Part shown: positions 9,453 through 48,809 of the stretch, in pieces
How the letters are laid out: each line of letters opens with the position of its first letter
Position numbering within the stretch: position 1 is the first letter of the stretch
From: Variovorax paradoxus
GTDB taxonomy: Bacteria; Pseudomonadota; Gammaproteobacteria; Burkholderiales; Burkholderiaceae_C
Assembly (NCBI GenBank): GCA_016806145.1
Contig: CP063168.1
Span: 186,001-250,000, forward strand
Reading direction: 5' to 3'
Length of the DNA stretch: 64,000 bases
Notes under the pieces: model-generated
Databases searched by the model: none
What the model was told of the DNA's origin: nothing
The model's input: the letters and a program-made list of their open reading frames with translations, nothing else
Position numbers and translations under genes: made by a program

Positions 9453-9486
9453 TGTACAAACCGCCCTCCGCAGCGTGCGAACGTTC

Positions 9487-10062: not shown

Positions 10063-10073
10063 GGTGTTGGTCT

Positions 10074-12883: not shown

Positions 12884-12884
12884 G

Positions 12885-14560: not shown

Positions 14561-14584
14561 ATCGGTCTCAAGAGATGGAGGAGA

Positions 14585-15289: not shown

Positions 15290-15290
15290 T

Positions 15291-30581: not shown

Positions 30582-30613
30582 GAATCCCACTCCTTGCACT
30601 TGAGACTGTCCAA

Positions 30614-30634
30614 GGTGTTGAACCGTTCAACACC
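30614..30634. promoter_or_regulatory. parS-like site 4
   Basis: GTGTTGAAC-C-GTTCAACAC with an extra outer G/C pair, between parA and parB and 34 bp upstream of the parB start. ParB binding here could also affect translation or transcription of parB. Confidence 0.72.
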
Positions 30635-30692
30635 TGCAGCCGTGCTCCTTTTCCCAGGCAGGGTATTACCGCCCATCGGAGCATGGGAAGGG

Positions 30693-30711
30693 GTGTTGAA
30701 CCGTTCAACAT
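30693..30711. promoter_or_regulatory. parS-like site 5
   Basis: GTGTTGAAC-C-GTTCAACAt, one outer mismatch, between the parA stop (30733) and parB. It is 78 bp from site 4, measured between equivalent bases. Confidence 0.7.
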
Positions 30712-30732
30712 CCCAGGCGATAGGCCGCACGT

Positions 30733-31968
30733 TCATCGCCGAGCCTCCCTGCACGAGCCATCGATGGACGGTGTCGCGCCTCTGACTCCTGCTAGCTGCC
30801 GCGCCCAGACCGTACGGACGGAACCCTCGACGTGTCCCACGAAGCTGTCATACGCATCCCGCGCACGCTTGAAAGTACGCGCGCTTCCGTCGTATCGAGA
30901 AACGTCGTACAGGGTCCCAAACTCGGCGCTGGCGACGCCCGTCACCGCAGTCTTGGGGATCTCCACAGGGAGAACCTTTTCGGCATACGTCTGGCCGATC
31001 CACTGGCGGATGACCGCGCTCGCGGCATCTGCAGAGTCCACACGAGCGAGCAGCACGTGGATGAAATCGAAGTGCTTGTCCAACCCGCGCTTGGTCAGCA
31101 GCTCGCCCGTCAAATCGGAGAAAAGACTCCAGAACTGGGAAGCCGATGCAAAGTCGAGCGCGTTCGGCGGCAACGGCATGATGATGCCGTCCGACGCCAT
31201 GAACGCATTGATGGTGGTGTAGGAAAGGGCAGGGGGGGTGTCGAGGATGACCACGTCGTAGTCGCTGCGGATGTCGTCGATCCCCAAGTCAAGCACCCGC
31301 CAAAATTCGAAGCCCGGCTCCTGCGTCTGCCTGGCAGGCAGCAGGAACTCCGCACCGAACAATGAAGGCGCGGCAGCCACCAAGTCGATGCCGTCCCAGT
31401 AGGTGGGTCTGATCGCGTAGCGAATGGAGGTTTCCGTCCCCATGGCCAAAGGCAGGATGGTGTCTTGCTCCTCGACCTCCGTATCGGGCAGGATGCCGAA
31501 CAAGGTGGTGAGTGAGCCTTGGGGATCGGTATCGATGACCAGGACACGATGACCCAAAAGAGAAAGCCCCTGCGCGAGCGTGACCGCGGTCGTCGTCTTC
31601 GACACCCCGCCCTTGAAGTTGCCGATCGAGATCGTCACCGCTTCCGCGTCCTTGGGACGCAGGCGATCCTTTCGGTACTCTTGCATCCAGACGCGGGTTT
31701 CCGCGAGCGTGAATTCTCGACGGCTACCGGCGGCATTCAGTTTTCCAGAGGGAAGGTCGCCCTTTGTGAGGCGGTGGGAGACGGATCCCTTTTCGACCTC
31801 GAGCATCGTTGCAAGTTGGGAAAGGCTGTACCGAGGAGCCTCCTTGCGTGCAGTTGGCGCCAACATGGTGGCCCGGATCTGCTCCATCATGGCTACGGCG
31901 CGCTCGGCTTGATCCGCGATGTCCGCCAAGCTGATGAGCTTGAATTGAGGAAGAGGAGTTGATGTCAT
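30733..31968 (-). CDS. parA: ParA-family partition ATPase
   Basis: A 411-residue ATPase from the ATG at 31968. The N-terminal 110 residues include a helix-turn-helix region (YSLSQLATMLEVEKGSVSHRL), as in type Ia ParA proteins that also repress their own operon. The deviant Walker A FKGGVSKTTTA is at residues 118-128, with Walker A' VIDTDPQGSLT and Walker B VVILDTPPALSY following. It moves plasmid copies by ATP-dependent binding to nucleoid DNA and contact with ParB. Transcribed divergently from rep, with the origin-like repeats between them. Confidence 0.94.
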   Translation of the reverse strand: MTSTPLPQFKLISLADIADQAERAVAMMEQIRATMLAPTARKEAPRYSLSQLATMLEVEKGSVSHRLTKGDLPSGKLNAAGSRREFTLAETRVWMQEYRKDRLRPKDAEAVTISIGNFKGGVSKTTTAVTLAQGLSLLGHRVLVIDTDPQGSLTTLFGILPDTEVEEQDTILPLAMGTETSIRYAIRPTYWDGIDLVAAAPSLFGAEFLLPARQTQEPGFEFWRVLDLGIDDIRSDYDVVILDTPPALSYTTINAFMASDGIIMPLPPNALDFASASQFWSLFSDLTGELLTKRGLDKHFDFIHVLLARVDSADAASAVIRQWIGQTYAEKVLPVEIPKTAVTGVASAEFGTLYDVSRYDGSARTFKRARDAYDSFVGHVEGSVRTVWARQLAGVRGATPSIDGSCREARR

Positions 31969-32562
31969 ATGCTGATTTCTGTTGCTCGCGAGTTTACCGG
32001 CGTGCTTTACGGAAAGCACTGCTATCGACTGGGAATCGTCAAATGCAACGGATTTTTCTGCTTCTCGAAGTTGTGGCAGGTATCCGGTTTTGGAGAGTTT
32101 GAATTCCTTCAAGCCCTTTAATCTCTTTAGGGCGATTTTTTTTCTTTGAAATCAAGGAGTTAGGCGTAGTTGGGTGCAGGTCTTCGGGAACGACCGGAGG
32201 CTTTTCAGGATGTTCCGCATAGAAACACGGGATCAAGCGGCGAGCCCGCAGGGCCATAGGTGAGTGGATACGGGTTCGCTGCCCGACGCGATGAGGGGTT
32301 TTAGGTGAGGGTTTTCAGGAGTTTTGGGACGGGATTGAGGGGAGGCGTGTTGCGATAGGCGGCCTCAAGCGCGACAGGATGCCTTGACAGCTTTCCAACG
32401 GAGCCTGGAACGAGCCGCAGGCGGGATGCAGGCTAGCCAGAGTGGCAAGACATCCCGAAAACTCTCCACCAACTCCAGGAATGGTGCAGGCACGAGCGAG
32501 GCACACGTGAGAGTTTTCGGGAGCGGGAGGCGTATGATCTGAAGTGAATCGAGCTTTCACAC
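31969..32562. other. putative replication origin between parA and rep
   Basis: No gene. The stretch begins with an AT-rich segment (about 32040-32160, including an eight-T run) that could melt easily, then carries four copies in both orientations of the repeat GAGRGTTTTCRGGAG. This layout, next to a Rep_3 gene and a par operon, is what an iteron-controlled origin looks like. I saw no certain DnaA box. Confidence 0.6.
32197..32523. repeat. iteron-like repeats upstream of rep
   Basis: Copies are GAGGCTTTTCAGGAT at 32197-32211, GAGGGTTTTCAGGAG at 32307-32321, the complement of GGAGAGTTTTCGGGATG at 32451-32467, and GAGAGTTTTCGGGAG at 32509-32523. A further copy lies at 28522-28536. The last copy is 40 bp before the rep start and may also serve autoregulation. 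Rep_3 initiators bind such repeats. Confidence 0.65.
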
Positions 32563-34005
32563 ATGACGTACAGTAGGTACATGGCACGAAAGCTCGCTTC
32601 CCCCACACTCTCGTCGAGCGATTCGCGAGGAGAGTTGGATCGCGGCGAGCGTCCCGAAGAAAGCCTGCTCCTTCGTAAGGCCGTCAACACGCTTGCAATC
32701 GTGCCCAAGTCGGCACGCATCACCACGTTGGGCCGCAAAAGCTACAACGTGCTGCTCTACCAAGCCCAGGAGCAGGGACTGGAGAAGGATGTCTTCCGCA
32801 CTCCCCTGGACACCGTGGTCAAAGGCCTGGACTTCGACAGCAACGATCACGCGTTGATCAAAAAGCACTTGCGAGCCATGGTGTCGACCACGGTGGAGTG
32901 GCAATCGCCGACTTCGGGCGAGGGCGCCAGCTGGAACGTCAGCGGTCTGTTGGCGCACGCCAAGCTGAGCAAGGAGCGCGGCCAGGTCTGGGTGGAGTGG
33001 TCGTACGCGGTGAACCTCAAGCAGGAGCTGCTCGAGCCGACGGTGTTCGCACGTCTTCGGCTGGAGGTCATCAGCCAACTGCGTACCCATGCAGGCGTAG
33101 TGCTCTACGAAATCTGTACTCGCTACAAGGACATCGGTCGAACAGCGCGTCAGCCTTGGCGCTGGTGGTATCCGGTGCTCAGCGGCAACCCGACCTCTGA
33201 AAAGACCGAGCGCCTGGAATACCGAATCTTCAAGCGTGACACCCTTAAGCCTGCCATCGCCGAAGTCAATTCCATCACCGACTTGGACATCGAACTGGTC
33301 GAGCACAAGCAGGGCCGCTTCGTCGACGAGATCCAGTTCTACATAGGGCTCAAGAAGCAGACCAACCTTGCGCTCACACGGCCGCCTCGGCCGGTGGACG
33401 TCGGGCTGGTGACGCGAGCGGCAAAGTTGGGAATTCCGGAAGAGACCCTCGAGCCACTGTGGGTGGCTCATGGTGAAGCCGCAGTGCATCAAGCACTGGA
33501 AGCGCTCGAGCGACGGATGGCCAACCCATTCCCCGAGGCCCTGCGTGATCCGTTGCGCTACCTCAAGGCGTTGCTTGCCAATGCAGCGCCACCGGCGAGC
33601 GCTGCCACGGCTACCAGCACAATCGACGGCGGCCTGCCGACAGCTGCGCGCGAACTGCCGTCGGCGCGCAAGGCGCGATGGCAGGCCGAATGGACTCGCC
33701 GGGAGCACGATCGCTGCGCCGCAGCGATCAACGCCCTTTCCGAGGAGGCGCAGCGCGAGCTCGAAACGCAGTTGCTCGAGTCCCTGCGCGCACGCGATGC
33801 GCATCCATCCATCATCAAGCGTCTCGGTGCGAGCGGCTGGCAGCATCCAATGGTCCGCCAGGAGATGCTCAAGTTCTTTGGCGACGCGTCCTTTGGTGCC
33901 GGGTGGGACAAGCCCACTGCGGAGCAACTGCTGGAAATCGCTTCGCAGATTGGCGTGGATCAGGAAGCCGGCGACCCTGCCGATCCTGGATACCGGCGAT
34001 CCTGA
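32563..34005 (+). CDS. Rep_3-family plasmid replication initiator
   Basis: A 480-residue initiator. After a 35-residue tail, the first winged-helix domain has LLLRKAVNTLAIVPKSARIT and later VEWQSPTSGEGASWNVSGLL. The second has LYEICTRYKDIGRTARQPWRWW and YRIFKRDTLKPAIAEVNSITD, the pattern of RepB/Rep_3 proteins that bind iterons and recruit DnaB. The C-terminal 150 residues (Ala-rich linker, then RKARWQAEWTRREHDRC) are an extension beyond the core family. An ATG at 32581 is an alternative start with AGTAGG upstream. It is divergent from parA, with the iteron-like repeats just upstream. Confidence 0.9.
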   Translation: MTYSRYMARKLASPTLSSSDSRGELDRGERPEESLLLRKAVNTLAIVPKSARITTLGRKSYNVLLYQAQEQGLEKDVFRTPLDTVVKGLDFDSNDHALIKKHLRAMVSTTVEWQSPTSGEGASWNVSGLLAHAKLSKERGQVWVEWSYAVNLKQELLEPTVFARLRLEVISQLRTHAGVVLYEICTRYKDIGRTARQPWRWWYPVLSGNPTSEKTERLEYRIFKRDTLKPAIAEVNSITDLDIELVEHKQGRFVDEIQFYIGLKKQTNLALTRPPRPVDVGLVTRAAKLGIPEETLEPLWVAHGEAAVHQALEALERRMANPFPEALRDPLRYLKALLANAAPPASAATATSTIDGGLPTAARELPSARKARWQAEWTRREHDRCAAAINALSEEAQRELETQLLESLRARDAHPSIIKRLGASGWQHPMVRQEMLKFFGDASFGAGWDKPTAEQLLEIASQIGVDQEAGDPADPGYRRS

Positions 34006-35760: not shown

Positions 35761-37206
35761 GGTGCAGAGAAAATGATGGGACCGGTCCTCACCGATCCGA
35801 CGCGGCGGCGGGTCAGGTATCGAACGCGATCCTATTCGTGTTGTGTGACGTCGCGCACCGAGCTCGCACAGGTAACGGGTCATTTCGACGCTATCGCTGG
35901 GCTTGTCGGCTGCACAGGGTTGGCCGCCTCGAGGCTCGACGATAGCTCGCCCCCGGAACCTCCAGGTCCTACTTCACGCGCATGAAATCGATGCGGTCTT
36001 CATCGACCGATTGCCAGGTGCATCCCGCCTCGCATTCACCGATGAAAGGTATGTCGGCAGCTCGATTGCAAGCCGCCGGCACTGGGCGTCTCGGGGCAGC
36101 GCAACTGTCCATGGATTTTTTTGTCAATCCTGCGAGGACCTCGATCGAACAAAGGCAAGATTGTTGCGTTAACAAAACATCGCAGAGCGTGCGCAATGGA
36201 TGATGTGCCGGCCGCAACCAATCGTGCGACAACATCGAGACGTCGAGTGTCGCTGGAGGATCAGCGCAGATGCTCGAGATCTCGATGCATGACCCATCAC
36301 GAACCCTCGATGGCACGTGTCGCGAGCGATGTCCACGGATATGCAACGGATTCGAAGCTACTCGGGGCTTTCAGCCGAGCGCATCGACGGCCTGCGTCAA
36401 CGCATGCGGGCGATGTTCCCCGTCAGGCTGTCGGGCAAATCGTGAGTCTCCGGTGAGCCTGCCTAACGCAGAGCACTCTGGTCGGCATGACCGACACGGA
36501 AAGTCTGGAAGGAATGGCTGCCTTGGTCAAAGGATTGGCCATGGAAGGCGAGCCAGTGTGTCGTTATCTGAAAAGCGAGCATGGTTATCGTGTTTGCCCA
36601 TATGGGCGTCGAGAGCGTCGTGTTGTTCACACCCCCCGAGCGAATAGAGAATGGGTGGCTGAAGCGACATTGCTCGATAGCACGAGCGCTTGCGATGAAC
36701 CATCCCACGAAGTGGTGAGAAAGCGTTGTTCGTCGCACCGAAGGAACAGCGCGTTCGAGGTCGGTAGCTCGTTACTGCGAAATGTTTCCCAAAAGTGAAT
36801 GCGTTCACATCCTCAATCGGAACGCCTACCTGTTTCCTACCGTAATCTGTAGTATCCATTCGTACTACAGCTTGCAACGGAGATAACGAATGTCGAAAGC
36901 ACGCGCCAAGGGCAGCTCACCCTGATACGCGCCCACGGGCCCTCGACGGCCTGCCCAGCGTACGCCTGAAGCGGCAACGCGCCCCCGCAGCAATGGTGGT
37001 CGATTAGTCGACGACCCGCCCAAGAACCCAGACGCCCATCCGTCGACGAGCCGACCTCGACTCGTGTGGATAGGCGCGCCTATGCGAACAGCCAGACTTC
37101 GAGAGAAGCCCCGATTCTTCGGGAGGGACCAGTCTTGCCGTTCGAGAGACAGCGCGCGGCCCCAAAGCCGACGCATTCGAAACAAGACTCTGGACTGGAG
37201 AGTTGG
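35761..37206. other. long gene-poor region
   Basis: No supported gene in about 1.4 kb. Open frames on both strands are short, lack ribosome sites and have no recognisable motifs. The one structured part is an inverted repeat at 36847-36870 followed by a short 11-codon open frame. The DNA has lower GC in 36120-36200 and 36530-36880. It may be the site of deleted genes. Confidence 0.4.
36847..36870. promoter_or_regulatory. inverted repeat upstream of a truncated open frame
   Basis: Arms CTGTAGTA (36847-36854) and TACTACAG (36863-36870) with an 8-bp centre form a 24-bp dyad. Twenty bases later GGAG and an ATG at 36890 begin MSKARAKGSSP, which stops after 11 codons. This looks like an operator and start of a gene whose body is lost. 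Confidence 0.45.
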
Positions 37207-38529
37207 ATGCTCGCCCTATCGCCTAGTGGGGGACATCGTTTCCTGGCAGGCCTTCAAGCCCGCACGACGATGTCGCCTCGCCCGCTTGCCTCGTCGGTCG
37301 TGGATGCGCAGACGCACCTTGCCTCTGGCATTCCACAGCCGCCGCGACGCGCATGCACATACGTGTTCATCGGGAATCTCCCTCAGCTCTCGCAAGCGTA
37401 TGGGATCGAATTCGCGATGGCCGTCAGCCGCGAGGTCCGTCGCAGGATCTGCTTGTCGTTCGTCCGCACGATGGGCACCGACTTCGCCTTTCCGAGAGAT
37501 GACTGTTGCCTGCTATGGTCTAACGAAAGTTTCCCAGTTCCGGTTGACACGTCGCTGACAGCCGCTCGCGAACAGCTCGAGTCGGTGCTCACCCATGTCG
37601 GCAAGCGGCCGATCGTGTTCCGAGGTATCGCAGTGCTGGCCCAGTTGCATGCCGACTGGATCGAGATGGGATCGCCGGGCGAGCTCGACAGCGCGGAGAT
37701 CGAACTCGCTCTGTGGACGGCCCAGCAATGCGCAGAGTTCGAACAGATGGAACTCGATGGCTGGGGGCACCGCTATCGCGCCGACATGGATGTCGCCGTG
37801 CGCACTGCCGAAGCACTCTCCAGGGGATTCCTGAGCTTGTCCTGGCGACCGGTGGTCGACGTCTACGGCGGTTCGAGCGCCCTCTATCACTCGCTTATCG
37901 CAACCGCCGGTCCCATCCCCGAAGAAAGTCGCTCGGACGCCATCCACGAGAGCGTCTACGCACCGAGCTTGGAGCGCCTCGGCCTGGCGAGGCTTTGGGA
38001 CAGGCACTTGTTGCGAAAGACATTGGCGATCCTGCGCCAGCGCCCGGGATTGCGTCTGGGAATACGGCTTTCCACGCAGAGCGCCCGCTGCGACCACTGG
38101 TGGTCATCGGTCTTCTCGGCGCTGCATTCGGAGCCCATGCTCGCCTCGCGGCTGGTGGTGGAGTTCAGTGCGAGCGGCGTCGTGTCCGAGCTGGAGGCCG
38201 TGAGGAGCTTTTGCAGCCGCCTCCAATCCCTGGGCTGCCGCATCGCCGTGCGTGGTCTTGGATGCCGTGACGGCGACCTGGCCATCGTCCACGCTTGCAG
38301 ACCGGATATCGCGAAGGTGGATCCCTCCTTCCTGCGTCGGGCCCGCAGCAGCGAGTTCGGCCGCGAAGGACTGCAGGAAATGCTCTCGCTCGCAGGCCAT
38401 CTTGCGAGCCACGCGGTGGTAGATGGAATCGAGCGGGAGGAGGACATGCGGCTGGCGCTGCGGGCCGGAGCGCAATGGGTCGAGGGTGCCTTCATGGACG
38501 GCGCAAAGGCCCGCAGAGGCGAGGCCTAA
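37207..38529 (+). CDS. degenerate EAL-domain protein
   Basis: A 440-residue protein from the ATG at 37207 (GGAGAG just upstream); a GTG at 37066 and an ATG at 37270 are also in frame. The first half has a weak GGDEF-like shape (TYVFIGNLPQLSQAYGIEFA) without the GGDEF motif. The second half aligns with an EAL domain, but its catalytic landmarks are lost: FLSLSWRPVVDV instead of a normal opening, no E-A-L, VVEFSASG in place of EITE, and VRGLGCRDGDLAIVHACRPD in place of DDFGTG. It cannot hydrolyse cyclic-di-GMP but may bind it or a protein partner. It is followed 2 bp later by the winged-helix gene. Confidence 0.75.
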   Translation: MLALSPSGGHRFLAGLQARTTMSPRPLASSVVDAQTHLASGIPQPPRRACTYVFIGNLPQLSQAYGIEFAMAVSREVRRRICLSFVRTMGTDFAFPRDDCCLLWSNESFPVPVDTSLTAAREQLESVLTHVGKRPIVFRGIAVLAQLHADWIEMGSPGELDSAEIELALWTAQQCAEFEQMELDGWGHRYRADMDVAVRTAEALSRGFLSLSWRPVVDVYGGSSALYHSLIATAGPIPEESRSDAIHESVYAPSLERLGLARLWDRHLLRKTLAILRQRPGLRLGIRLSTQSARCDHWWSSVFSALHSEPMLASRLVVEFSASGVVSELEAVRSFCSRLQSLGCRIAVRGLGCRDGDLAIVHACRPDIAKVDPSFLRRARSSEFGREGLQEMLSLAGHLASHAVVDGIEREEDMRLALRAGAQWVEGAFMDGAKARRGEA

Positions 38530-38531
38530 GC

Positions 38532-39302
38532 ATGAGCAGCGACATCGGTGAATTGCTCGTGCGCATGACAGTCTTGCTGGGGCAGCTGCAGCAAACCTTG
38601 AACGACATCGCCGTTTGCAACGAGTCGATCAAGGACTGCCGACGCCAGCACGCAGGGGAGCCGCCAAGCAGCGAAGTCGATGGCGCGACCCATGCGCAGT
38701 ACGTCGCGCTCGAAGAGGCCATTCGGCAGCAGACGGAGCAGGCGGCAAGAGCTCGGCAGTCCGCTTGCGCACAGGTGACGCCGCCTCCTTCGTCTGGCGA
38801 GATCTTTCTGGGATCGAGCAGTTGGCGTCTCTCGATGAACGGCTGGCGTCTTGCGAAGGAGGAGGGCGTGGAGGTGCGGCTGCGCCCTCAGGAGCGATCG
38901 CTGCTGCTGAGAGTGGCTCGCGCACCCAGTCAGTTCCTGGCTCCCCACGAAGTCAAGGAGCTGAACCGCTCGCTTGTCGACTCGGCGGACAACGTCGCAA
39001 AGATCGATGCCGCCGAAGAGGACATCGGATCGCAAGCAGGCGAGGAGACATTGGATCTTCTGCACACCAAGGTGATCGGCCGCCTGCGTCGGCGCATGCG
39101 CATGAACGGTCATCTGCTTCCGCTGCGCATGTCCGCGGCAGGAAGCGTCTACGTCGACGAAGCAGGCGACCTGCCGCGCGCGACAAGACGCAGACCCGGC
39201 GCACCGAACCCGCTCCATCCGCAGCGGATGGACAAGGCGAAGAGCGCCCCTCGCCCCGATATCCGAATCGCCACGGGGCTCACTGTCGGCGGCAGGAAAT
39301 GA
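38532..39302 (+). CDS. winged-helix (OmpR/PhoB-type C-terminal) DNA-binding protein without receiver domain
   Basis: A 256-residue protein starting 2 bp after the EAL-like gene. Residues 1-80 are predicted helical and coiled-coil-like (LVRMTVLLGQLQQTLNDIAV, then LEEAIRQQTEQAARARQSA). Residues about 105-215 fit the OmpR-type DNA-binding domain: VEVRLRPQERSLLLRVARAP, a middle helix VVHTKVIGRLRRRMRMNGHL-like stretch (LLHTKVIGRLRRRMRM) and a closing hairpin LPLRMSAAGSVYVDE. There is no receiver domain, so input may come from the coiled coil or from the adjacent EAL-like protein. It lies 79 bp upstream of the secreted-protein genes and is the best candidate for their local activator. Confidence 0.6.
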   Translation: MSSDIGELLVRMTVLLGQLQQTLNDIAVCNESIKDCRRQHAGEPPSSEVDGATHAQYVALEEAIRQQTEQAARARQSACAQVTPPPSSGEIFLGSSSWRLSMNGWRLAKEEGVEVRLRPQERSLLLRVARAPSQFLAPHEVKELNRSLVDSADNVAKIDAAEEDIGSQAGEETLDLLHTKVIGRLRRRMRMNGHLLPLRMSAAGSVYVDEAGDLPRATRRRPGAPNPLHPQRMDKAKSAPRPDIRIATGLTVGGRK

Positions 39303-39381
39303 GATCTCCACGTCGCGGAACTCTCCTTTCCTCTCGCTGGCGACTGCCCCTCAACCGTACCCACAAGCAAACGGACAACCA

Positions 39382-39954
39382 ATGACGACAGTACATCGCT
39401 TCTTCCCACCGCGCAGGTCCACGCGCGAAATCACCCGATCGCCCAGGTGCGCTCTTGTCGCCCTGTGCCTGATCGCCTGTGCTGGGCAAGGCATGGCCAA
39501 CAACGTCGGCGAGAACGCGGCGTGGCAGTTCCAGACCTCGGCCGACAAGGCCAACCAGGCCGCCGTCCAGGACATGATCCAGCGGCGCAAGGCGGGCAGC
39601 TACGGCGCTGCCAGCACCACCAACAACACCTACATCCAGCGACAGTTCAACTGCGACGTCAACGCGACCGCGCAGGGCAACCAGGGCTCCAACAGCACGG
39701 TTGCGAACTCGCCCAGCACCAGCGGAGCGGCGGCCACATCGACGGGCAACGACAACACGGGTTGGAGCGGAAGCGGCACGGTGACCACCGGACAGGCCAA
39801 TGCCGGCACCGTGGGATCCCTGGTCAATGGTTCGACGACCACGGGAGTGCAGGGTTGGGCCGCCCAGGCGCTCAACTCCAACCAGACGAACAGCGGCAGC
39901 CAGAGCGCAAGCGTGAGTGGCAGCACCGCCTGTGCCTACGGAACGCTCAACTGA
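39382..39954 (+). CDS. small secreted N/Q/S/T-rich protein, HfaA-like
   Basis: A 190-residue protein with a signal peptide (basic n-region, core CALVALCLIACAGQGMA, cleavage near residue 40). The mature part is rich in Asn, Gln, Ser, Thr and Gly, with NNTYIQRQFNCDVNATAQGN and repeated NQT/GNQ elements, and only a few aromatic residues. Composition and size resemble curli subunits and the Caulobacter holdfast-anchor protein HfaA. It sits immediately before an HfaB/CsgG-type secretion gene (13 bp gap) and a giant repeat protein gene, the same order as hfaA-hfaB-hfaD. The assignment rests on composition and context. Confidence 0.55.
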   Translation: MTTVHRFFPPRRSTREITRSPRCALVALCLIACAGQGMANNVGENAAWQFQTSADKANQAAVQDMIQRRKAGSYGAASTTNNTYIQRQFNCDVNATAQGNQGSNSTVANSPSTSGAAATSTGNDNTGWSGSGTVTTGQANAGTVGSLVNGSTTTGVQGWAAQALNSNQTNSGSQSASVSGSTACAYGTLN

Positions 39955-39967
39955 CGGATAAGCATCA

Positions 39968-41383
39968 ATGACATCGATCATCTTCGCCCGACCACGCCCG
40001 GCGTCCATCGCCTCGATGAGAACGCTCAGTGCCGCAGTCGCGCTTGCATCGCTTGCCGGTTGCGTCACCGCTCCCCAGGAGCGTGCCGCCCCCAGGGAGG
40101 CACCCGTCGTCCTCGGCCCCGCCGTTCGCGACAACGTCACGCCCATGGAAGCAGTGCTCGCCTGCTACGGGGACCATGTGGCGGCGACGGCCAAGCCTCC
40201 CATCGTGGTCTCCGTGGGCGACGTGAAGGACTACACCGGCAAGTACAGCATCAACGAAGGCAATGCGATCACGCAGGGCGGTGCACTGATGGTGTATTCG
40301 GCCCTGGGCAAGATGGGCGGAGCGGTGCAGGTCGCCGAGCGTTTCGATCCGGTCATCGCGGAGCGCGAGCTCGGCTATGCCGACCGCAGGCAGCTGGGAG
40401 ACGGGCGCTCGCACCAACTCGCCGGCCCTGCCGGCAACCAGGTGGTCCCATGGCTTCCGTACTTCGGGGGGTCGATCAACAAGTCGGACTACTTCATCGT
40501 CGGCGGCATCACCGAACTCAACTACAACATCAATTCCGGCGGCGCCGAGTTCGCAGTGAACCAGGTCGGCGTGAAAGCGAGGACCTTCAGCCAGTCCGTG
40601 GGCGTCGACCTGCGCATCGTCGACACCCGCACGCTGATGATCCTCAAGACCATCAGCCTGACCAAGCAGTTCAACGGCTACGAGGTCGGCTTCAACGTCT
40701 TTCGCTTCTTCCGCAACGATCTGTTCGACGTGGACGTCGGCGCGAAGGGCCAGGAGCCGGTGCAGTTGGGCATTCGCGCGGCGCTGGAAGAGGCCGTGGT
40801 CCGGTTGGTCGCCGCCGTCACCAAGGTCGACCCGAAGCCCTGCCTCGGCATGCGCGTCTTCGATGAACTGCCGCGCCAGTCGGCGGAGTCGCTGCGCAAG
40901 GTTCCCAACCCGATCGTCGATTCCAGCGGCGCGCGCGTGCTCACCGGCGAAGCCGTCAATGCGGCAAGCAACGCTTCGTCCGTCAACACAAGCGACGGCG
41001 CGAGCGTGCAGATCCCATTCGAGTTCGGCGCAGCGGCATTGACCGGCGGCACCTTGAATCTGCTCGACCAGATCGCGGCGGCCGCCGCCAAGGCGCCCAC
41101 CGAAGTGGTGCTGGTGGCCCGCGACACCGAGAACTGGGACGCGGGCAAGCGGGATCTGCTGACGGACCAGCGCATCGGCGTCGTGACATCAGCGCTGGTG
41201 TCGCGCGGGATCGCCCCCGGCGGCATCAGCGTGAGCTGGCGGCCGGACAAGGCCGACACAGCCATTCATCGCGACGGTCCGGGGCTGCAAGAGGTCGCCA
41301 AGTTGCGCGTTCAGGGCGCGGGCTCGGGCAAGGGCGGGCCGGTTCAACCAGCCCGAGAGGAGAACACACGACGAGGGAGCTAA
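39968..41383 (+). CDS. CsgG/HfaB-family outer-membrane secretion lipoprotein with OmpA-like tail
   Basis: A 471-residue lipoprotein. The lipobox LAGC ends at Cys32 (or Cys16 if the ATG at 40016 is used). Residues about 75-290 form the CsgG domain: VVSVGDVKDYTGKYSINEGN, FGGSINKSDYFIVGGITELN, GVDLRIVDTRTLMILKTISL and a closing VQLGIRAALEEAVVRLV. CsgG makes the outer-membrane pore for curli, and HfaB does the same for the HfaA/HfaD holdfast anchors. The last 170 residues are unusual: IPFEFGAAALTGGTLNLLDQ to RIGVVTSALVSRGIAPGGI fits an OmpA-like peptidoglycan-binding domain, which standard CsgG and HfaB lack. It should export the proteins encoded on both sides. Confidence 0.82.
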   Translation: MTSIIFARPRPASIASMRTLSAAVALASLAGCVTAPQERAAPREAPVVLGPAVRDNVTPMEAVLACYGDHVAATAKPPIVVSVGDVKDYTGKYSINEGNAITQGGALMVYSALGKMGGAVQVAERFDPVIAERELGYADRRQLGDGRSHQLAGPAGNQVVPWLPYFGGSINKSDYFIVGGITELNYNINSGGAEFAVNQVGVKARTFSQSVGVDLRIVDTRTLMILKTISLTKQFNGYEVGFNVFRFFRNDLFDVDVGAKGQEPVQLGIRAALEEAVVRLVAAVTKVDPKPCLGMRVFDELPRQSAESLRKVPNPIVDSSGARVLTGEAVNAASNASSVNTSDGASVQIPFEFGAAALTGGTLNLLDQIAAAAAKAPTEVVLVARDTENWDAGKRDLLTDQRIGVVTSALVSRGIAPGGISVSWRPDKADTAIHRDGPGLQEVAKLRVQGAGSGKGGPVQPAREENTRRGS

Positions 41384-41472
41384 ACCGCACTGAAAGCTGA
41401 ACGCCACCACCACATCGATCCTCCGGATCCACTGAATTTTCGGAACTTTTGATCAATACCCAAGGAACTTCC

Positions 41473-44400
41473 ATGAAGAAGACTCGCAATCTCCAGTCGC
41501 GTGCCGTCAAGGCGCCGGCACTCAGCCGCGTCGGCCTCGCGGTGCTCGCCAGCCTGGCAGCCAGCGGTGCGATGGCCGCGCCGCTCGAATCGGGCGCGAC
41601 CACCACCATCAACGCGACGACCTCGACGGCAACCGCCTCGGGCTTCCTCACCGTGGATTCGGTGCAGACGAAGACGCAGCCTGTGTCGGCGACCGCCTCC
41701 GGTCAGCAGATCGGCGTCACCGTCGATGGCGTCCAGACCGGCACCTCCAACACCACGACGCAGAACAAGGTGAACGCCACGGCCAAGGCCAACGAGTTCT
41801 CCAACGCGATCGATCTGTCCCTGACGGGTAGCACGATCGTGCTCGACGGGGCGGCATCGCTGGGCGTGCAGACCAATACCGGCACCATCACCAGCAACGC
41901 GAACGGCAACTCGGTCGGCGTGAACCTCAATGGTTTCTCCTCGGGCGAAGCGTCGAACACGCAGAACACGGTATCGGCTACCACCGTGATCAATGGCGGC
42001 GCATCCTCGGTCGCAGGTACCGTCCCGGTCGACTACGCTTCCGCGGCGCCCGGCACGACGTCGAGCACGCACGCGGCCGGCAACAACAGCAGCCAGGCAT
42101 CCGGCAGCATCGTCGTCACCACCGCTCAGCAGGGTGTCGGTGCCGCATCCTCCGCGAACGCCGGCGGCAACTCCGTCACGCTCGATCTGACCGCCGACGG
42201 TGCGAACGCCGTGAACTCGGCACCCGCTCTCGACGGCAACACCGTCTCGGCCACGCTCAAGGGAAATGCGGCGACCAACACCGCCTCGATCCAGGCTGGC
42301 GGCGCACCGACCTTCGCCGGCTCGGCCGTCGTGAGCAACCTGCAGCTCAACCAAGGCGCGGCTGTGACGCACAACGCGTCGAACACCCTAACCTCGATCG
42401 ACGCGACCATCGGCAGCAATGGCACCGGTACGACCAACGTGCTGAATGGTGCGCTGTCGGTCCAGGGCAACACGGTCTCGAGCGCAGCGACTGGCAACGA
42501 AGCACTGGGTGCCGCTGGCGTGGCCGGCAACCGCATCGTGCTGGCCGACGGAATCTCCGTCGCCGGTTCGGGCGCGCCGACCGTCAACAGCAGCACCTAC
42601 AGCGCCGGCAGCCAGAGCTCGCAGCTCGGTGCCGACCTCGCGATCCTGAACACCCAGGGCAACGTCGGCGTCTCGCTGCAAGGCTCCACGAATGCCGCAA
42701 GCGTGACCGCCACCGTGCAGTCGATCGACGGCGGTGCGTCGACCGTCGCGGGCAATGCGATCACCTCCGCAGCCACCGGCAACGCCGCATCCAGCGCGAT
42801 CGCGACCGGTCAGAACGGCGCAACCTTCTCGGCCACCGCGGCACTCGCCAACCAGCAGAGCAACTATGGCGGCGGTGTCTCGGCCGTGACCGCACCGTCG
42901 ATCATCGGTGCCGAGACCGGCCTGGAAAACGGCACCACCAAGGGCAGCACGGTGGCCGTCGAGCAGAACCGCACTGCTGCCTCCGCCTACGGCAACAGCG
43001 CCACGCAGAGCCTCTCGCTGGCCGCCAACGCCTTGCCGCTTAGCGCCGGCGCCACGGTCGTCACCGGTGGTCGCACGCCCGATGGCAACGTCTCGGCCAG
43101 CGGCGCGGCGACGATCACCAGTCTGCAAAGCAACTACGCGAGCCCGGTTTCCGCGACCACGGCTGGCTCCTACGTCGGCGCCTATGTCGACTCGCGCGGT
43201 ACCGGTGGCGACACCATCACGGGCAGCACAATCGGCGCAAGCAAGAACACGCAGGAGGCGGTCGGCCTTGCCAACAGCGCATCGAACGCCCTGTCGCTGA
43301 CCGGCACCAGCATCGGCTCCGGCGCAGGCGTCGCGAACATCCAGATTGTGGACGCGGCTTCGCCCGTGAATACCCAGCTGGTCGGCTCCGCCGCTGCCGT
43401 CTATGCCGGCACGCACATCGCGGACACCAGCCTGAGCCTGTCGGACAATCTGCAGCGTTCGATCGCCTACGGCAACTCGACCGGGAACACCCTGACGGTC
43501 GCAGCCAATGGGGCGACGGTGCCCACTTCGGTTGCACCGGCATCGACGCTGTCGAGCACGCCGAGCCTGGGTGGAACGGTGACGGCAGCATACGGTCTGC
43601 TGAACAACCAGTCGGCCCTCGGCGATGTGGACGCGCAAGCCATCGGCTTTGGCGGCCCCCTCGGTGCAGTGACGGTCCTGCTGGAAGGCAATGCCACCCG
43701 CAGCCAGATCGCCAACCAGGGCAATGCCTTCGTCGCGGCCGCCTACGGCAACGATGCGAGCAACGTCGGCAGCGTCAATCTGGGCACCGGCGTCGATGCC
43801 GCGGGCGCGGCGTCCATCGCCAACGTCACCAGCGCGCAGACCGCCAGCGGCGCCGTGTCGGCGACGGCAACCGGCGGCTCGGTCATCGCCACCGCGATCG
43901 AAGACAACGTCTCGGCCTCGACGGTAGCCACCTCCGGCAACCAAATCCAGGCCCTGGCTTTCGGAAGCCGCGGCACGAACAGCCTGAGCGCCTCGGGCAA
44001 CGGCATCGAAACTGTGTCGGCCACGCCGCTGACCGGTGCGACCTCTAACGCCGGCACGCTCACGACCAACGCAGCCTTCAGCGTGCAGAACGCGCAATCG
44101 GGCGCAGGCTCGGTCACCGCAACGCAGCGCGACGGGGTCTTGGTCGGTGGCACCGCCGCCGGTATCCTTACCGCTGTGGGTGGCAACGTGACCGGCTCGA
44201 GCATCGCCTCGAACGACAACGTCTCCAGCGCTTCGGCAACCAGCAACGCCGCGACGAACAGCCTGAGCCTGTCGGGCAACGGTCTGTCGACCACCACCGC
44301 CTTGCAGAACTCGCAGACGACCAGCGCCAACGTCAACGCGCTGATCGGCCAGGCCGGTGTCGCTGGAAGCGCCGGCACGTCGCCGGAGCCGTTCTCGTTC

Positions 44401-46173
44401 AACGCGACCGGCAGTGCCCTGACCGGCACCTTCTCGGGCACGACGGCAACGCTGACCGGCGGTACGCTGACGGTAGCGACGTCCACGCTGACCCCGGGCC
44501 AGATCGCCTACCTGACCGGCAACGGCTGGACGATCACAGGCGGCAACATCAGCGGCTCGGCGACCATCCTGGGCACCATCCCGCTGTCTGCCTACACGTT
44601 GATCGCGGAAGGTGGCTCGGCATCGCTGTCGGCGACGATTCCGGGTACTCCTGCGACGGCCAGCGTCCCGAACCAGGGCGGCGTCATCCTGGCCGTCTCG
44701 GGTTCAGTGACCGGCTCGCAGTTGTCCGTCGACGGCAACAGCAACACGGGCTCCGTCACGGGCAACAGCGCGACCAACACCTCGAGCGTCGCCGGCAACG
44801 CCGTCGCAGCCGGCAGCGGCCGCACGGTGGCGAACGCTGGCGCCCTCGTCACCGGTTCGGGCGCGCAGGCTGACAACGCGCTGTCGAACGTGCAGTCGGT
44901 GACCGGTGACTCGGCACTGGTGAGCAATGTGTACGGCAGCTTCGCCGTGGATACCGTGGCTGGCTCGGCCATCGGCAACTCCACTGTGAGCGTGTCCAAC
45001 AACAGCCAACGAGCGAGCTCGGTTGCCAACACGGCCACCAACACCCTGGACGTGAGCGCCACCAACCTGGCAGCGACCTCCGCGCTGGCATCGCAGCAAT
45101 CGAGCGCCGCCTCGGTCGCCGCGACCTCGGACGCGGAACTGTATGCACCAGGCGCAGTGTCGGGTTCGTCGGTGGCTCTGGCCAACAACCGCAACGTGTC
45201 GCTGGGCGTGATCAACGACGCGACGAACGCGCTGACGGTCACCGCGGGCAACGCGACGCCGGTCGGTGCCACGACCAACGCCGTTCTGAACGCTGCGGGC
45301 GCCACTGGCGACCATGTGCTCAGCAACAGCCAGGCTGCGTCCACCTCGGTCGCCAGCACGGCGAGCACGCGTCTGTACAACCAGGACCGTGTGGCCACGG
45401 CCACCACGGGTCTGGCGGACAGCACGTTCTCCATCACCGGCAACGCGACCACGGCGGAGGCATCGGCCAATCGCGCGGACAACAGCGCGACGCTCTCGGG
45501 CGCCGCACTGCAGGGTAGCAACGTTGGTCTGAGCAACGCGCAGACCAGCAGCGCCGCCGTCAACGCGACGTCAAGCACCACCGCGGGTTTCAACCTCGAA
45601 GGTGGCGTGCCGGCGGCAACCGCCGCGCTCAACAGCGGGCTGACCATCGACAGCAATAGCACGACGGCGCTGGCACGCGGCAACGCGGCAAGCAACGTGC
45701 TCAACGTGTCGGCGGGCAGCAGCTACGCGACGCCCGCACCGTTCGCCGGCAGCACCGTCGGCGCCTCGCAAGCGACCGCCGCCGTGCTCAACAACCAGGG
45801 CAACACGGGCAACGTGAGCTCGTTCGCCACGGCCAGCTACCAGGTGGCCCTGAACGCGACGGCTCCCGTGCTCGTGCCTGGCGTGAGCGGCAGCACCGTG
45901 GCCGTCACCGGCAACACGACGGCTGCGCAGGCGTACGGCAACATCGCGACCAACAGCGTCAATGTGAGTGCTCCGAGCGCAAGCCGTCCGACGGCCGCGG
46001 TCGGAAACTTCCAGACCAACAGCGGTACGGTCGTGGCGACTGCCACCAGCGTGAACTACGGCATCGGCGTCACTGGCGCGGCCACGGGCAGCACGCTGCG
46101 CGCGGCAGGCAACCAGGTCAACGCCACGGCCGTGGGCAACTCCGCCGTGTCGACGATCGCGTCGGTGCGGTGA
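41473..46173 (+). CDS. giant secreted repeat protein, HfaD-like adhesin/anchor
   Basis: A 1566-residue secreted protein. The ATG at 41473 follows AAGGA by six bases and starts a signal peptide MKKTRNLQSRAVKAPALS... ending at SGAMA-AP. The mature protein has almost no charged or aromatic residues and consists of Ala/Gly/Ser/Thr/Asn/Val repeats. A core G-N-x-x-x-N-x-L-x-L element recurs at least 16 times between residue 264 and the C-terminus, each followed by an N-x-Q-x-x-x-x-x-V-x-A strand, as expected for a beta-solenoid. Spacing alternates between 62-77 and 85-95 residues. A non-repeat insert of about 100-130 residues (around 947-1077) carries TGGTLTVATSTLTPGQIAYL and differs in style. Likely a surface fibre or anchor exported by the CsgG/HfaB-type pore. 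Confidence 0.7.
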   Translation: MKKTRNLQSRAVKAPALSRVGLAVLASLAASGAMAAPLESGATTTINATTSTATASGFLTVDSVQTKTQPVSATASGQQIGVTVDGVQTGTSNTTTQNKVNATAKANEFSNAIDLSLTGSTIVLDGAASLGVQTNTGTITSNANGNSVGVNLNGFSSGEASNTQNTVSATTVINGGASSVAGTVPVDYASAAPGTTSSTHAAGNNSSQASGSIVVTTAQQGVGAASSANAGGNSVTLDLTADGANAVNSAPALDGNTVSATLKGNAATNTASIQAGGAPTFAGSAVVSNLQLNQGAAVTHNASNTLTSIDATIGSNGTGTTNVLNGALSVQGNTVSSAATGNEALGAAGVAGNRIVLADGISVAGSGAPTVNSSTYSAGSQSSQLGADLAILNTQGNVGVSLQGSTNAASVTATVQSIDGGASTVAGNAITSAATGNAASSAIATGQNGATFSATAALANQQSNYGGGVSAVTAPSIIGAETGLENGTTKGSTVAVEQNRTAASAYGNSATQSLSLAANALPLSAGATVVTGGRTPDGNVSASGAATITSLQSNYASPVSATTAGSYVGAYVDSRGTGGDTITGSTIGASKNTQEAVGLANSASNALSLTGTSIGSGAGVANIQIVDAASPVNTQLVGSAAAVYAGTHIADTSLSLSDNLQRSIAYGNSTGNTLTVAANGATVPTSVAPASTLSSTPSLGGTVTAAYGLLNNQSALGDVDAQAIGFGGPLGAVTVLLEGNATRSQIANQGNAFVAAAYGNDASNVGSVNLGTGVDAAGAASIANVTSAQTASGAVSATATGGSVIATAIEDNVSASTVATSGNQIQALAFGSRGTNSLSASGNGIETVSATPLTGATSNAGTLTTNAAFSVQNAQSGAGSVTATQRDGVLVGGTAAGILTAVGGNVTGSSIASNDNVSSASATSNAATNSLSLSGNGLSTTTALQNSQTTSANVNALIGQAGVAGSAGTSPEPFSFNATGSALTGTFSGTTATLTGGTLTVATSTLTPGQIAYLTGNGWTITGGNISGSATILGTIPLSAYTLIAEGGSASLSATIPGTPATASVPNQGGVILAVSGSVTGSQLSVDGNSNTGSVTGNSATNTSSVAGNAVAAGSGRTVANAGALVTGSGAQADNALSNVQSVTGDSALVSNVYGSFAVDTVAGSAIGNSTVSVSNNSQRASSVANTATNTLDVSATNLAATSALASQQSSAASVAATSDAELYAPGAVSGSSVALANNRNVSLGVINDATNALTVTAGNATPVGATTNAVLNAAGATGDHVLSNSQAASTSVASTASTRLYNQDRVATATTGLADSTFSITGNATTAEASANRADNSATLSGAALQGSNVGLSNAQTSSAAVNATSSTTAGFNLEGGVPAATAALNSGLTIDSNSTTALARGNAASNVLNVSAGSSYATPAPFAGSTVGASQATAAVLNNQGNTGNVSSFATASYQVALNATAPVLVPGVSGSTVAVTGNTTAAQAYGNIATNSVNVSAPSASRPTAAVGNFQTNSGTVVATATSVNYGIGVTGAATGSTLRAAGNQVNATAVGNSAVSTIASVR

Positions 46174-46221
46174 TCTAGTTTCGCCCCTCCCCCGGCGGAC
46201 GGTTTGCTGCCGGGGACTTTT

Positions 46222-46251
46222 GCTCAAACCGCTTCGGCGGTTTGAGCCTTT
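46222..46251 (+). terminator. strong intrinsic terminator after the adhesin gene
   Basis: GCTCAAACCGC and GCGGTTTGAGC form a perfect 11-bp stem closed by a TTCG loop (UUCG in RNA, very stable), followed by CTTTT. It lies 49 bp after the adhesin stop and should end the operon. Confidence 0.85.
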
Positions 46252-46610
46252 TGATTCGCCGGTTCTTCTCTTGAATCCCTGCATCTTCATCAGAGCCCAA
46301 TTTCCCGATGTCGCGCGTCGCCGTTGTGCCGCTTCGACCTCGTCGCGCTCGGACGCGGTGGATCTGACGCACCGAGTGAAGGCATACGGCCCGGTCGACG
46401 ATCTCTCGCCATCCCCTGGCGCGTTCGTTGCCATTCCAACCTGTCACTTCCTGTCCTTCACACAGCTGCTGCAAAGAGAAAAAACAGCTTCGATTTCCAT
46501 CAACTCCATCTCATCAATCACGGAAAAGCCGGGACCCTGACGTCCAGCGATACAAGTCCCTTCGCGGGACGAGCTGGCGTACGGGGAGGGGAGTCCGTAT
46601 CCGTTCCAGC
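46252..46610. other. intergenic region before the Crp/Fnr gene
   Basis: No gene is visible. The stretch should hold the promoter and leader of the regulator gene; GGGGAGGGGAG about 20 bases before 46611 is a rough ribosome-site candidate. Confidence 0.4.
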
Positions 46611-47366
46611 ATGTATCTGCATCCACTTATTGCCACGCTGCCCGACAGCGAGCGTGCGCTGCTTGTTCAAAGTACCGAACTGCGGGACTATCGTCGCAAC
46701 GACGTCGTCCTTGCAGTAGACCAGACCTCGGAGCATGTCTATTGCGTCGCCAGCGGCTTGCTGCGCGTGGTGGTCCATGGCAGCGACACCGGCAGCGAAG
46801 GCGTCACAACCGATTTCGTCAGCAAGGACGACTTCTTCTTCGGTACATCGATCAAGGAGGACAGCTTCGTGGCGCAATCCACGTTGATCGCCGCCCTCCC
46901 ATCGTCCGTCTACCTGATACCCATCAGCGTCCTGCGGCGTCTTTGCACGCTCTTTCCACAAGTCGCGGTAGGTCTGCTTGAGCCGGCCCTGAAGCGGATA
47001 TCCATGATCCGCGGCCAACTGAGGCGAATCTCGTCGCTCTCGCCGGTCGAGCTGGTCGGGCGGGTCCTTCATGAACTGACCCACCTGGCCCCCGCAGGGG
47101 CTGATGGATACGACAAGCGGATCACACAGGCCGTGATCGCCTCCTACGCCGGGCTCTCCCGGGAGGGGGTGAACAAGGCCATGCGCGAACTCGAGAACCG
47201 CGGGCTCGTGCGTCGCGACGACGAAGGTGTGCACGTGCCGCCGGGGTTCGCATCGACAGACTTCGGCGCTCTGGAGTCGGACGCGGAAAAACACGACGGG
47301 AAGGATGCCTCGCGTCTTCGGCTGCAGGACCTTTCGGATCGTCAGCGATCGCGCCGCGGCAGCTGA
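46611..47366 (+). CDS. Crp/Fnr-family transcriptional regulator
   Basis: A 251-residue regulator starting MYLHPLIATLPDSERALLVQ. Residues 1-130 form the cyclic-nucleotide-binding-like beta-barrel (VYCVASGLLRVVVHG), then the long dimer helix, and the HTH at about residues 165-215 (TQAVIASYAGLSREGVNKAM, then LENRGLVRRDDEGVHV). The cAMP-contact residues of true Crp are not obvious, so the ligand may differ; some family members bind cyclic-di-GMP. The last 35 residues are a polar tail. Its place between the adhesin operon and a cyclic-di-GMP phosphodiesterase gene suggests it links second messengers to adhesion. Confidence 0.85.
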   Translation: MYLHPLIATLPDSERALLVQSTELRDYRRNDVVLAVDQTSEHVYCVASGLLRVVVHGSDTGSEGVTTDFVSKDDFFFGTSIKEDSFVAQSTLIAALPSSVYLIPISVLRRLCTLFPQVAVGLLEPALKRISMIRGQLRRISSLSPVELVGRVLHELTHLAPAGADGYDKRITQAVIASYAGLSREGVNKAMRELENRGLVRRDDEGVHVPPGFASTDFGALESDAEKHDGKDASRLRLQDLSDRQRSRRGS

Positions 47367-47513
47367 GCCCGCTGCGGCGCGACTCCTCCGCAAGCACGAA
47401 GCCCACGACGCGCCGCAGAATACGCGGGTCATCGAAAAACAAGAATAGTCAGGGAGCTGGTTTTCGCTGTGCGCATCGAAGGATCCGCACCGCCGCGAAT
47501 CGAAGAGAGATAG

Positions 47514-48809
47514 ATGAACAATGTCCAGGATCCGCTCACCGGTTTGCTCGCCCGCCAGAGCTTCATGGTCGTTGCTTCCGATTGGCTCCGCTCGCAGAGG
47601 GGACCGCGTCAACGGCTGGTGATCATCGAAGTCTTCGGTCTGTCCATCATCAACGAGACGCAGGGCCTCGCATCGGGCGACCAGATCCTGCGCGACGTCG
47701 CCTTCTGGCTCGGGTCCAGGTTCGATCCGACCCAGTCGGTCCTCGGGCGTTGGGACGGCAACAAGTTCGTCGTGCTGTACGAGGCATGCGATACGGAATG
47801 CTTCCTCGCGAGCGTCCACCGTGCGAGTCTTGGGTCGATCGGTCTCGCGACCGACCTCGGCAGGCAGGCCGAAATGATCCGACTGCATGTGGGACTCTGC
47901 GACTGTCGCTCGCTTGATCTCGACGATCTCCTGACCTTCGCCAATGAGGCCCTTCATGAATCCGGCAGGTCCGCGACGGCGCCGGCCTATCGGTTCGATG
48001 AAGCGATGCATCGACGCCTTCTTCGGCGCCAGGACGTCGAGAAAGACCTGGCATGCGCCATCGAATCGGGGGCCATCGGCTTGTGGTACCAGCCTATCTT
48101 CAGCGGTGACGGTCGCAGGATCCAGAGTCTGGAGGCCTTGCTCCGCTGGCACCATCCTCGGCAGGGCTGGACGTCGCCCGAGGAGGTGGTCCACGCCGCC
48201 ACTCTCATGGGCATGGGCGAGACGCTCCTGCAGCATATCCTTCAGGAGGTATGCCACGGCCTGCATTCGCTCTCGCAAGCCGACGCGGGCTTCGACAGCG
48301 TGCCCGTCGCGATGAACGTGTCGCCTCGCGAGATAGGGAGCCTTGCCTTGCGCGATGTGCTGCTGCCCACACTTCGGCGCGAAGGCATCGCGCCCGAACG
48401 TCTGAGAGTGGAGATCACCGAGGAAAGCGCACTGGATAGTCCGTCGACGTCCGTCCAGCTCGAGGCGCTCTCGGACGACGGCATAGGCATCGCCGTGGAC
48501 GACTTTGGTACCGGGTACTCGTCCCTGGCAATGCTGGACGCGAAGTACGTGAGGCAGGTCAAGATCGACCGACTGCTGATAGCGGACCTTCACAAGTCCG
48601 ATCGGCGCAGGCTGTTGGTAGGTTCGATCATCAATCTTGGCCAGGCCCTGGGCTTGGAGGTGGTGGGTGAGGGAGTGGAGACGGTCGAGGAATATGAACA
48701 CCTCCGATCGCTCGGCTGCCCTCTGGTCCAGGGTTACTACTTGGCGCGCCCGAGCCCGTTGGAATCCTTGATCGCCCAGGTTCGTCGCACAGGGGCCGGG
48801 CTGGGCTAG
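47514..48809 (+). CDS. GGDEF-EAL protein with degenerate GGDEF and intact EAL domain
   Basis: A 431-residue cytoplasmic protein with no membrane segment, start after GAAGAGAG. The diguanylate-cyclase domain (DPLTGLLARQSFMVV onward) has WDGNK at residues 80-84 instead of GGDEF, so it should not make cyclic-di-GMP but may bind GTP. The EAL domain keeps its key residues: Glu-Ala-Leu at 207-209, Asn268, Glu300/Glu303 in VEITEES, Asp329-Asp330 in DDFGTGYSSL, VKIDRLLI and GEGVET. It is therefore probably an active cyclic-di-GMP phosphodiesterase, which usually lowers adhesion and biofilm formation. Same direction as the adhesin operon and Crp-like gene. Confidence 0.88.
   Translation: MNNVQDPLTGLLARQSFMVVASDWLRSQRGPRQRLVIIEVFGLSIINETQGLASGDQILRDVAFWLGSRFDPTQSVLGRWDGNKFVVLYEACDTECFLASVHRASLGSIGLATDLGRQAEMIRLHVGLCDCRSLDLDDLLTFANEALHESGRSATAPAYRFDEAMHRRLLRRQDVEKDLACAIESGAIGLWYQPIFSGDGRRIQSLEALLRWHHPRQGWTSPEEVVHAATLMGMGETLLQHILQEVCHGLHSLSQADAGFDSVPVAMNVSPREIGSLALRDVLLPTLRREGIAPERLRVEITEESALDSPSTSVQLEALSDDGIGIAVDDFGTGYSSLAMLDAKYVRQVKIDRLLIADLHKSDRRRLLVGSIINLGQALGLEVVGEGVETVEEYEHLRSLGCPLVQGYYLARPSPLESLIAQVRRTGAGLG

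Follow-up and report, generated by a model that had tools for sequence, protein, structure and literature searches.

The Caulobacter holdfast anchor, in the available part of its description (PMC6707917), has the gene order hfaA-hfaB-hfaD and joins a HfaB/CsgG-type lipoprotein to a small secreted partner and a repeat protein. Curli export likewise uses a CsgG-domain protein and Q/N-rich secreted partners; the cargos that HfaB and CsgG are known to export are small. Adhesion genes can also be linked with a Crp/Fnr regulator, as for biofilm regulators such as Bcam1349 (PMC3584217), a likeness to our locus by description. Here we analysed a 64 kb stretch of Variovorax paradoxus DNA (the window; bases 186,001–250,000 of the 292,938-bp contig C3, CP063168.1), which carries an hfaA-hfaB-hfaD-like cassette between regulatory genes. 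We consider that a five-gene run, a closing hairpin and the Crp gene next to it probably make up a surface adhesin system with a local Crp switch, class-I activation and CsgG/HfaB-type export. The features are, in window coordinates:

36793–36810, no strand assigned: CRP-type operator AAGTGAATGCGTTCACAT, one mismatch to TGTGA-N6-TCACA
36850–36855, plus strand: putative -10 box TAGTAT, found by comparison; transcription would then start near 36862
37207–38529, plus strand: degenerate EAL-domain protein, 440 amino acids (aa); Pfam EAL 2.4e-29, start backed by alignment with relatives
38532–39302, plus strand: 256-aa protein of unknown family, directly 3' of the EAL gene
39382–39954, plus strand: hfaA-like protein, small, secreted and rich in Q and N; 190 aa, from an unnamed family
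39968–41383, plus strand: hfaB-like lipoprotein; CsgG domain at residues 73–291, OmpA-like C-terminal domain at about 351–427
41473–46173, plus strand: giant hfaD-like secreted repeat protein, 1566 aa
46222–46247, plus strand: terminator-like hairpin, 11 pairs (7 G-C), then CTTTTGATTC
46611–47366, plus strand: Crp/Fnr-family regulator, 251 aa, recognition helix SREGVNKAMR
47514–48809, plus strand: GGDEF-EAL protein, GGDEF plus EAL (7.3e-56), EAL residues intact

A sequence-only reading of this DNA had likened the three central genes to hfaA-hfaB-hfaD, and the order does recur. By alignment position, an hfaA-like match lies 5' of hfaB in 54/54 related loci and an hfaD-like match lies 3' in all 44 with more than 2.5 kb downstream; counting by the starts of open reading frames (ORFs) gives 45/54 and 43/44, the misses coming from ORFs with too early a start. 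The hfaD matches in distant loci have low identity in biased sequence and are weaker evidence. The A-B-D order is nonetheless beyond chance.

The pore protein proved a relative of HfaB, as proposed, and falls within the HfaB/CsgG group. It matches the CsgG family (Pfam PF03783) at 7.3e-20 and 71.6 bits, over the curated cut-off of 20.8, and the NCBIfam holdfast_HfaB model (NF037935) at 1.1e-57 and 195.2 bits, under the equivalog cut-off of 300. A lipobox cysteine is present by eye, and identity to the HfaB of two genomes exceeding the NF037935 cut-off is 31–32%. These two HfaB (338 and 332 aa by our own gene calls) and the L113 protein stop near the end of the CsgG domain, and the other 20 of 23 aligned HfaB-type proteins have an extra C-terminal domain. 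Of the 23, 14 are recognised by the Pfam OmpA model (best 1.4e-9); the match of the window protein is weak (0.044, below the Pfam cut-off), and the profile of the HfaB-like family matches solved OmpA/Pal domains at E 0.0015–0.084. Because OmpA-type domains commonly bind peptidoglycan, the hfaB-like protein is naturally read as a pore that its OmpA-like tail would tether to peptidoglycan in the wall.

The other two genes are present as described, with a small secreted product and a giant repeat protein, but the comparisons did not support their homology to HfaA and HfaD. The hfaA-like protein shares 19 invariant columns with 22 relatives, and its profile-profile comparison with holdfast HfaA gives a probability of 3.4% over 18 columns (22 vs 4 sequences). 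Three of those four reference proteins adjoin an over-cut-off HfaB, and the fourth, from locus L110, adjoins one at 297.5 bits. L110 (about 9468–11713) belongs to the host's order and couples this near-holdfast HfaB (cut-off 300) to a holdfast-type HfaA with an RDAxxNR motif, so both the holdfast type and the hfaA-like type exist in that order. For the giant, the probability against holdfast HfaD is 0.3%, a comparison that the repeats weaken; the two proteins do have in common the repeat element Q-x(5,6)-[VI]-x-[AS]. Holdfast HfaD measures 402–436 aa in three genomes, which makes the giant about four times longer, and hfaD-type giants in related loci run to roughly 1280–2790 aa by ORF length. 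The giant consists mostly of A, S, T, G and N, and two repeat elements stand above shuffled sequence (14 vs a mean of 4.8, and 9 vs 0.6; a stricter form of the repeat motif was found once). Its C-terminal 492 residues (encoded by 44695–46173) are predicted to be all-β, with a predicted local distance difference test (pLDDT) score of 86.8. In three loci (L015 at 11495–16186, L040 and L041 at 11438–16399; draft assemblies) the giant gene is apparently split into several frames.

These comparisons bear on whether the cassette could be orthologous to the holdfast anchor and, like HfaABD of Caulobacter, tether a polysaccharide of some kind. Its gene order and HfaB kinship would suit such a role, but the HfaB score lies under the equivalog cut-off, profile comparison joins neither HfaA nor HfaD, the pore has an extra OmpA-like domain, the third protein is four-fold longer, and EAL and Crp genes stand alongside. 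The claim that holdfast polysaccharide genes are missing stands for what was scanned: among 30 of the 52 genes called in the window there was no match to a polysaccharide-synthesis family, the genome outside the window not having been scanned for these. We therefore regard an orthologous anchor as unlikely. The system is related to the Caulobacter anchor and not the same, and 'holdfast anchor' is unsuitable as its name.

A curli-type amyloid system in the broad sense, with the giant as a very long curlin-like fibre subunit, would account for the CsgG domain, the Q/N-rich partner and the β-rich prediction. However, Pfam found no curlin match in ten core genes or in the 22 hfaA-like proteins, nor did those ten genes match a CsgE- or CsgF-type family (CsgG was the one curli family searched in the rest of the genome), and the window pore differs from that of curli by its OmpA-like tail. 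We consider this explanation improbable too. We tentatively suggest, at somewhat less than even confidence, a distinct branch of the CsgG class common to betaproteobacteria and sphingomonads, in which an OmpA-tethered pore would export giant β-repeat adhesins and a partner distinct from both HfaA and CsgA. Control would lie with a Crp switch of its own and with an EAL protein, inherited along with the cassette, that would have become non-enzymatic in betaproteobacteria; in sphingomonads a second Tol-like set could energise it.

Such a set is seen beside several sphingomonad cassettes. In L043 (14660–19564), L044 (15832–21175), L045 (8701–14116) and L047 (15717–21036) the cassette is followed by genes for a peptidoglycan-binding-domain protein and a TolQ/ExbB-like protein; TolA/TonB-like (weak match) and TolB-like genes come next in L043–L045, and a second giant gene takes their place in L047. 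The Tol-like families were scanned in L043, and the other three were assigned by the same protein clusters. Two TolB occur in 4/4 such sphingomonad genomes searched, one of them within the cassette locus in L043 and L044.

Regulatory genes travel with the cassette in a subset of its relatives. One EAL cluster accompanies 18/54 loci (12 betaproteobacterial or, for L051, unassigned, and 6 sphingomonad), and Crp-family genes occur in 9 of the 41 loci whose downstream sequence extends to 8 kb or more. Both flank the cassette in Variovorax and Xenophilus, and L018 has a cassette with neither gene within 10 kb on each side. The conservation of the flanking genes proposed earlier is thus borne out for these two, and the downstream domains were matched as described: the Crp protein scores 2.5e-09 and 37.4 bits with HTH_Crp_2 (cut-off 27) and 1.4e-07 and 31.9 bits with cNMP_binding (cut-off 27.5). 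Cyclic di-GMP (c-di-GMP)-type control had been suggested from the EAL and GGDEF-EAL domains, which are there; the head EAL has lost catalytic residues, however, and the GGDEF-EAL gene is not conserved with the cassette. The best-evidenced regulator appears to be the Crp-family protein, for which a candidate operator is conserved.

In seven Variovorax loci the palindrome RTGTGA-N7-CACAT lies 5' of the EAL gene with 16/18 positions invariant. Outside it, in an ungapped alignment anchored on the site, 3/55 upstream positions are invariant as against 15/17 in the -10 block. Exact copies among 117 loci are confined to these seven and L033, L016 and L021 each having a further site, and 100 shuffles of L019 gave no match. 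The Xenophilus loci and L051 have TGTYAT-N4-ATRACA (four copies in L039, where 0.01 are expected, a pair in each of L040 and L041, and a single copy in L051), a motif found in none of the other 113 loci. Taken together, the loci bearing one or the other type coincide with the 12 loci outside the sphingomonads that have EAL. When TAG[TC]AT is taken as the -10 box, a hexamer that occurs only 13 times on the plus strand of 230,121 bases, the operator is centred at -61.5 in 12 promoters; one of these stands before the L039 crp gene, and L040 and L041 look like a single strain. We take -61.5 to be the classical class-I position of CRP. A sigma-70 scan of the window promoter found nothing. The window site is one of three one-mismatch CRP-type sites in the 64 kb, and we retain it as a candidate operator because its position and the matching block downstream agree with the operator of the seven relatives.

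The palindrome and the regulator differ together. Among 16 aligned Crp proteins (that of the window plus 15 relatives), the recognition helix reads SRE in 13, all from Variovorax, and SRP in the three Xenophilus rows; where SRE becomes SRP, the half-site TGTGA becomes TGTYAT. The differing residue presumably corresponds to Glu181 of CRP, which would read the base that differs. The window helix SREGVNKA also resembles SRETVNKA of PDB chain 4cyd, which we take to be GlxR, a binder of TGTGA-N6-TCACA. Since half-site and helix change together, the data point to the linked Crp protein as the reader of the operator. A reader might instead be the host's general CRP, acting on the same cassette with the neighbouring Crp gene incidental: the window site is close to the general CRP consensus, and three betaproteobacterial EAL loci have no Crp gene (L033, and L017 and L051, whose contigs end early). 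The covariation with the neighbouring helix and the Xenophilus site before the crp gene itself argue against this, and we give it a minor share of the probability, above that of either the anchor or the curli explanation. The Xenophilus operator type also occurs near a YadA-like trimeric-autotransporter gene (L040 19095–21159; L039 20085), hinting at a wider adhesin regulon there.

Two further elements were noted around the promoter. By eye, an inverted repeat, CTGTAGTA/TACTACAG, overlaps it at 36840–36870, and most relatives have CCGTAG/CTACGG with a longer spacer. A leader ORF of about 38 codons between promoter and EAL gene is open in 7/7 Variovorax relatives; we rejected it as a gene because variable sites are even over codon positions (19, 16 and 14) and 24/26 variable codons change the residue.

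We propose that the local Crp-family protein binds the palindrome at 36793–36810 and would activate the promoter near 36862 from the class-I position, as the conserved DNA suggests. This promoter would drive five genes in an operon-like run (those for the EAL protein, the 256-aa protein, the hfaA-like protein, the hfaB-like protein and the giant), closed by the hairpin, with the Crp gene next. By homology, the CsgG/HfaB-type lipoprotein would form an outer-membrane pore whose OmpA-like tail would hold it to the cell wall, and by analogy with HfaB and CsgG this pore may export both the hfaA-like protein and the giant to give β-rich adhesive material outside the cell. The degenerate EAL protein may serve as a c-di-GMP sensor or adaptor and not as an enzyme. 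No holdfast polysaccharide would be needed, and the system most likely serves to attach cells directly through protein or to hold a biofilm together; its function at the surface, the export and any control by c-di-GMP are inferred. A strong terminator after the giant gene had been claimed, and the hairpin is indeed there. The number of sites lends no support (13 of this kind in the region vs 7.3 expected in the same scan), and a terminator is plausible because of the hairpin's strength and place.

Several observations weigh against this system as proposed. The operon structure is deduced from gene spacing, and the window operator is centred at -60.5, not -61.5. CRP-like sites with up to two mismatches show no excess in the window (14 vs 20.4 expected), and seven further operator-like sites, among them the L040 site before the YadA-like adhesin gene, have no TAG[TC]AT at that distance. 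The covariation of site and helix rests on two lineages. On the protein side, the predicted hfaA-like fold is poor (pLDDT 47), the repeat element was not significant in one giant tested (L059), and Foldseek found no solved relative at E<=0.001.

The EAL protein is degenerate, as first described. With the intact EAL of the window's GGDEF-EAL protein as reference, it keeps 3/11 active-site residues, and given the roles we assume for these, it would not be expected to act as a catalytic phosphodiesterase. Across the cluster, the sphingomonads keep 10–11 of the 11 residues and seven Variovorax loci 5–6, whereas the window and L033 are down to 3, and Xenophilus and L051 to 2; from this fall, an enzyme seems to have turned into a non-enzyme while staying with the cassette. 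In L033 (Variovorax sp. J22R133) the EAL gene is relocated 3' of the cassette, and operator-like sites lie before the cassette (9207–9224) and before the moved gene (17436). The 256-aa protein had been called a winged-helix protein, which the searches do not support: neither Pfam nor NCBIfam gave a match at E<=0.1, and the protein's N-terminal part aligns weakly with small ORFs at the same place in relatives (18–31% identity, two invariant columns). For the GGDEF-EAL protein there is no close counterpart in the related loci, and a search of plasmid records for near matches to its gene found none.

Contig C3 is one of three in a 9.44 Mb genome and is very probably a plasmid, as had been proposed, because it carries Rep3, ParA and ParB genes (29433–34005, upstream of the cassette, by profile scan) on 292,938 bp. 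That the plasmid is transferable was not upheld by the three families tried: VirB4-type ATPase (PF03135; F-type ATPases not covered) and relaxase PF03432 are confined to contig C2, and TrwC (PF08751) is absent from all three contigs. Mobilisation is still possible, since only two relaxase families were tried. On other plasmids, related pores occur in 17/72,556 records, all at <60% identity over less than half of the query, in a set that may omit records very near the window's genome. The EAL-cassette-Crp set was not among the annotated products of four plasmid neighbourhoods (Vibrio, Loktanella, Photobacterium and Caballeronia), though the gene tables in PLSDB have gaps and label many products 'hypothetical'. 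Small CsgG/HfaB-type genes are carried by the Vibrio alginolyticus plasmid L118 and the Photobacterium plasmid L120 (272 and 252 aa by annotation coordinates); the Vibrio gene lies directly after parA-parB.

The cassette is uncommon in the host's family, since the HfaB model matches 9/299 of its genomes (>180 bits in 4/299, the window's genome included). A phylum sample of 397 genomes gave 57 matches, 11 over the cut-off. Carriers include Variovorax, Xenophilus, Ramlibacter, Polaromonas, Limnohabitans and Alcaligenaceae, and further sphingomonads, Caulobacteraceae metagenome-assembled genomes and Mesorhizobium. We found no description of the system in Variovorax in the open-access literature. 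The best-named relatives of the window proteins are from Variovorax, and a second HfaB-like gene lies on the chromosome (6.67-Mb contig C1). In an HfaB tree of 53 rows the plasmid copy groups with Variovorax sequences in a 9-row clade (support 99/92); the two holdfast HfaB sit on long branches apart, their placement unsure. Both Variovorax HfaB types occur in six strains (E3, CAN15, SG517, 679, 110B and V. gossypii).

The plasmid copy could be a decaying duplicate with little function, as the length of its terminal branch (0.28, HfaB tree) and an EAL active site among the most eroded (3/11) might suggest. Yet all three cassette frames are open with strong codon bias (G+C at third codon positions is 0.71–0.86 across the open EAL, hfaA-like, hfaB-like, hfaD-like, Crp and GGDEF-EAL genes), the closest HfaB relative, in Variovorax sp. 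PDC80, is 96% identical and the HfaA of that strain 87%, and the chromosomal copy lies in another clade. Decay is thus the least probable of the explanations that we weighed.

If the adhesin system with its own Crp switch is correct, a pore of the HfaB/CsgG class, here with a probable wall-binding domain, is paired with giant cargos that would extend the known capacity of this export route. Two further features make the locus useful: a regulator and an operator that vary in step, at recognition helix and DNA site, and can be tested as a pair, and EAL proteins that form a graded series, from intact to non-catalytic, alongside one adhesin system. Because Variovorax live in soil and on roots, a role in colonisation there is possible. 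Elsewhere in the window, 25634–27970 encodes a plasmid-borne GmrSD-type restriction (DUF262-like) protein (PF03235, 3.1e-18).

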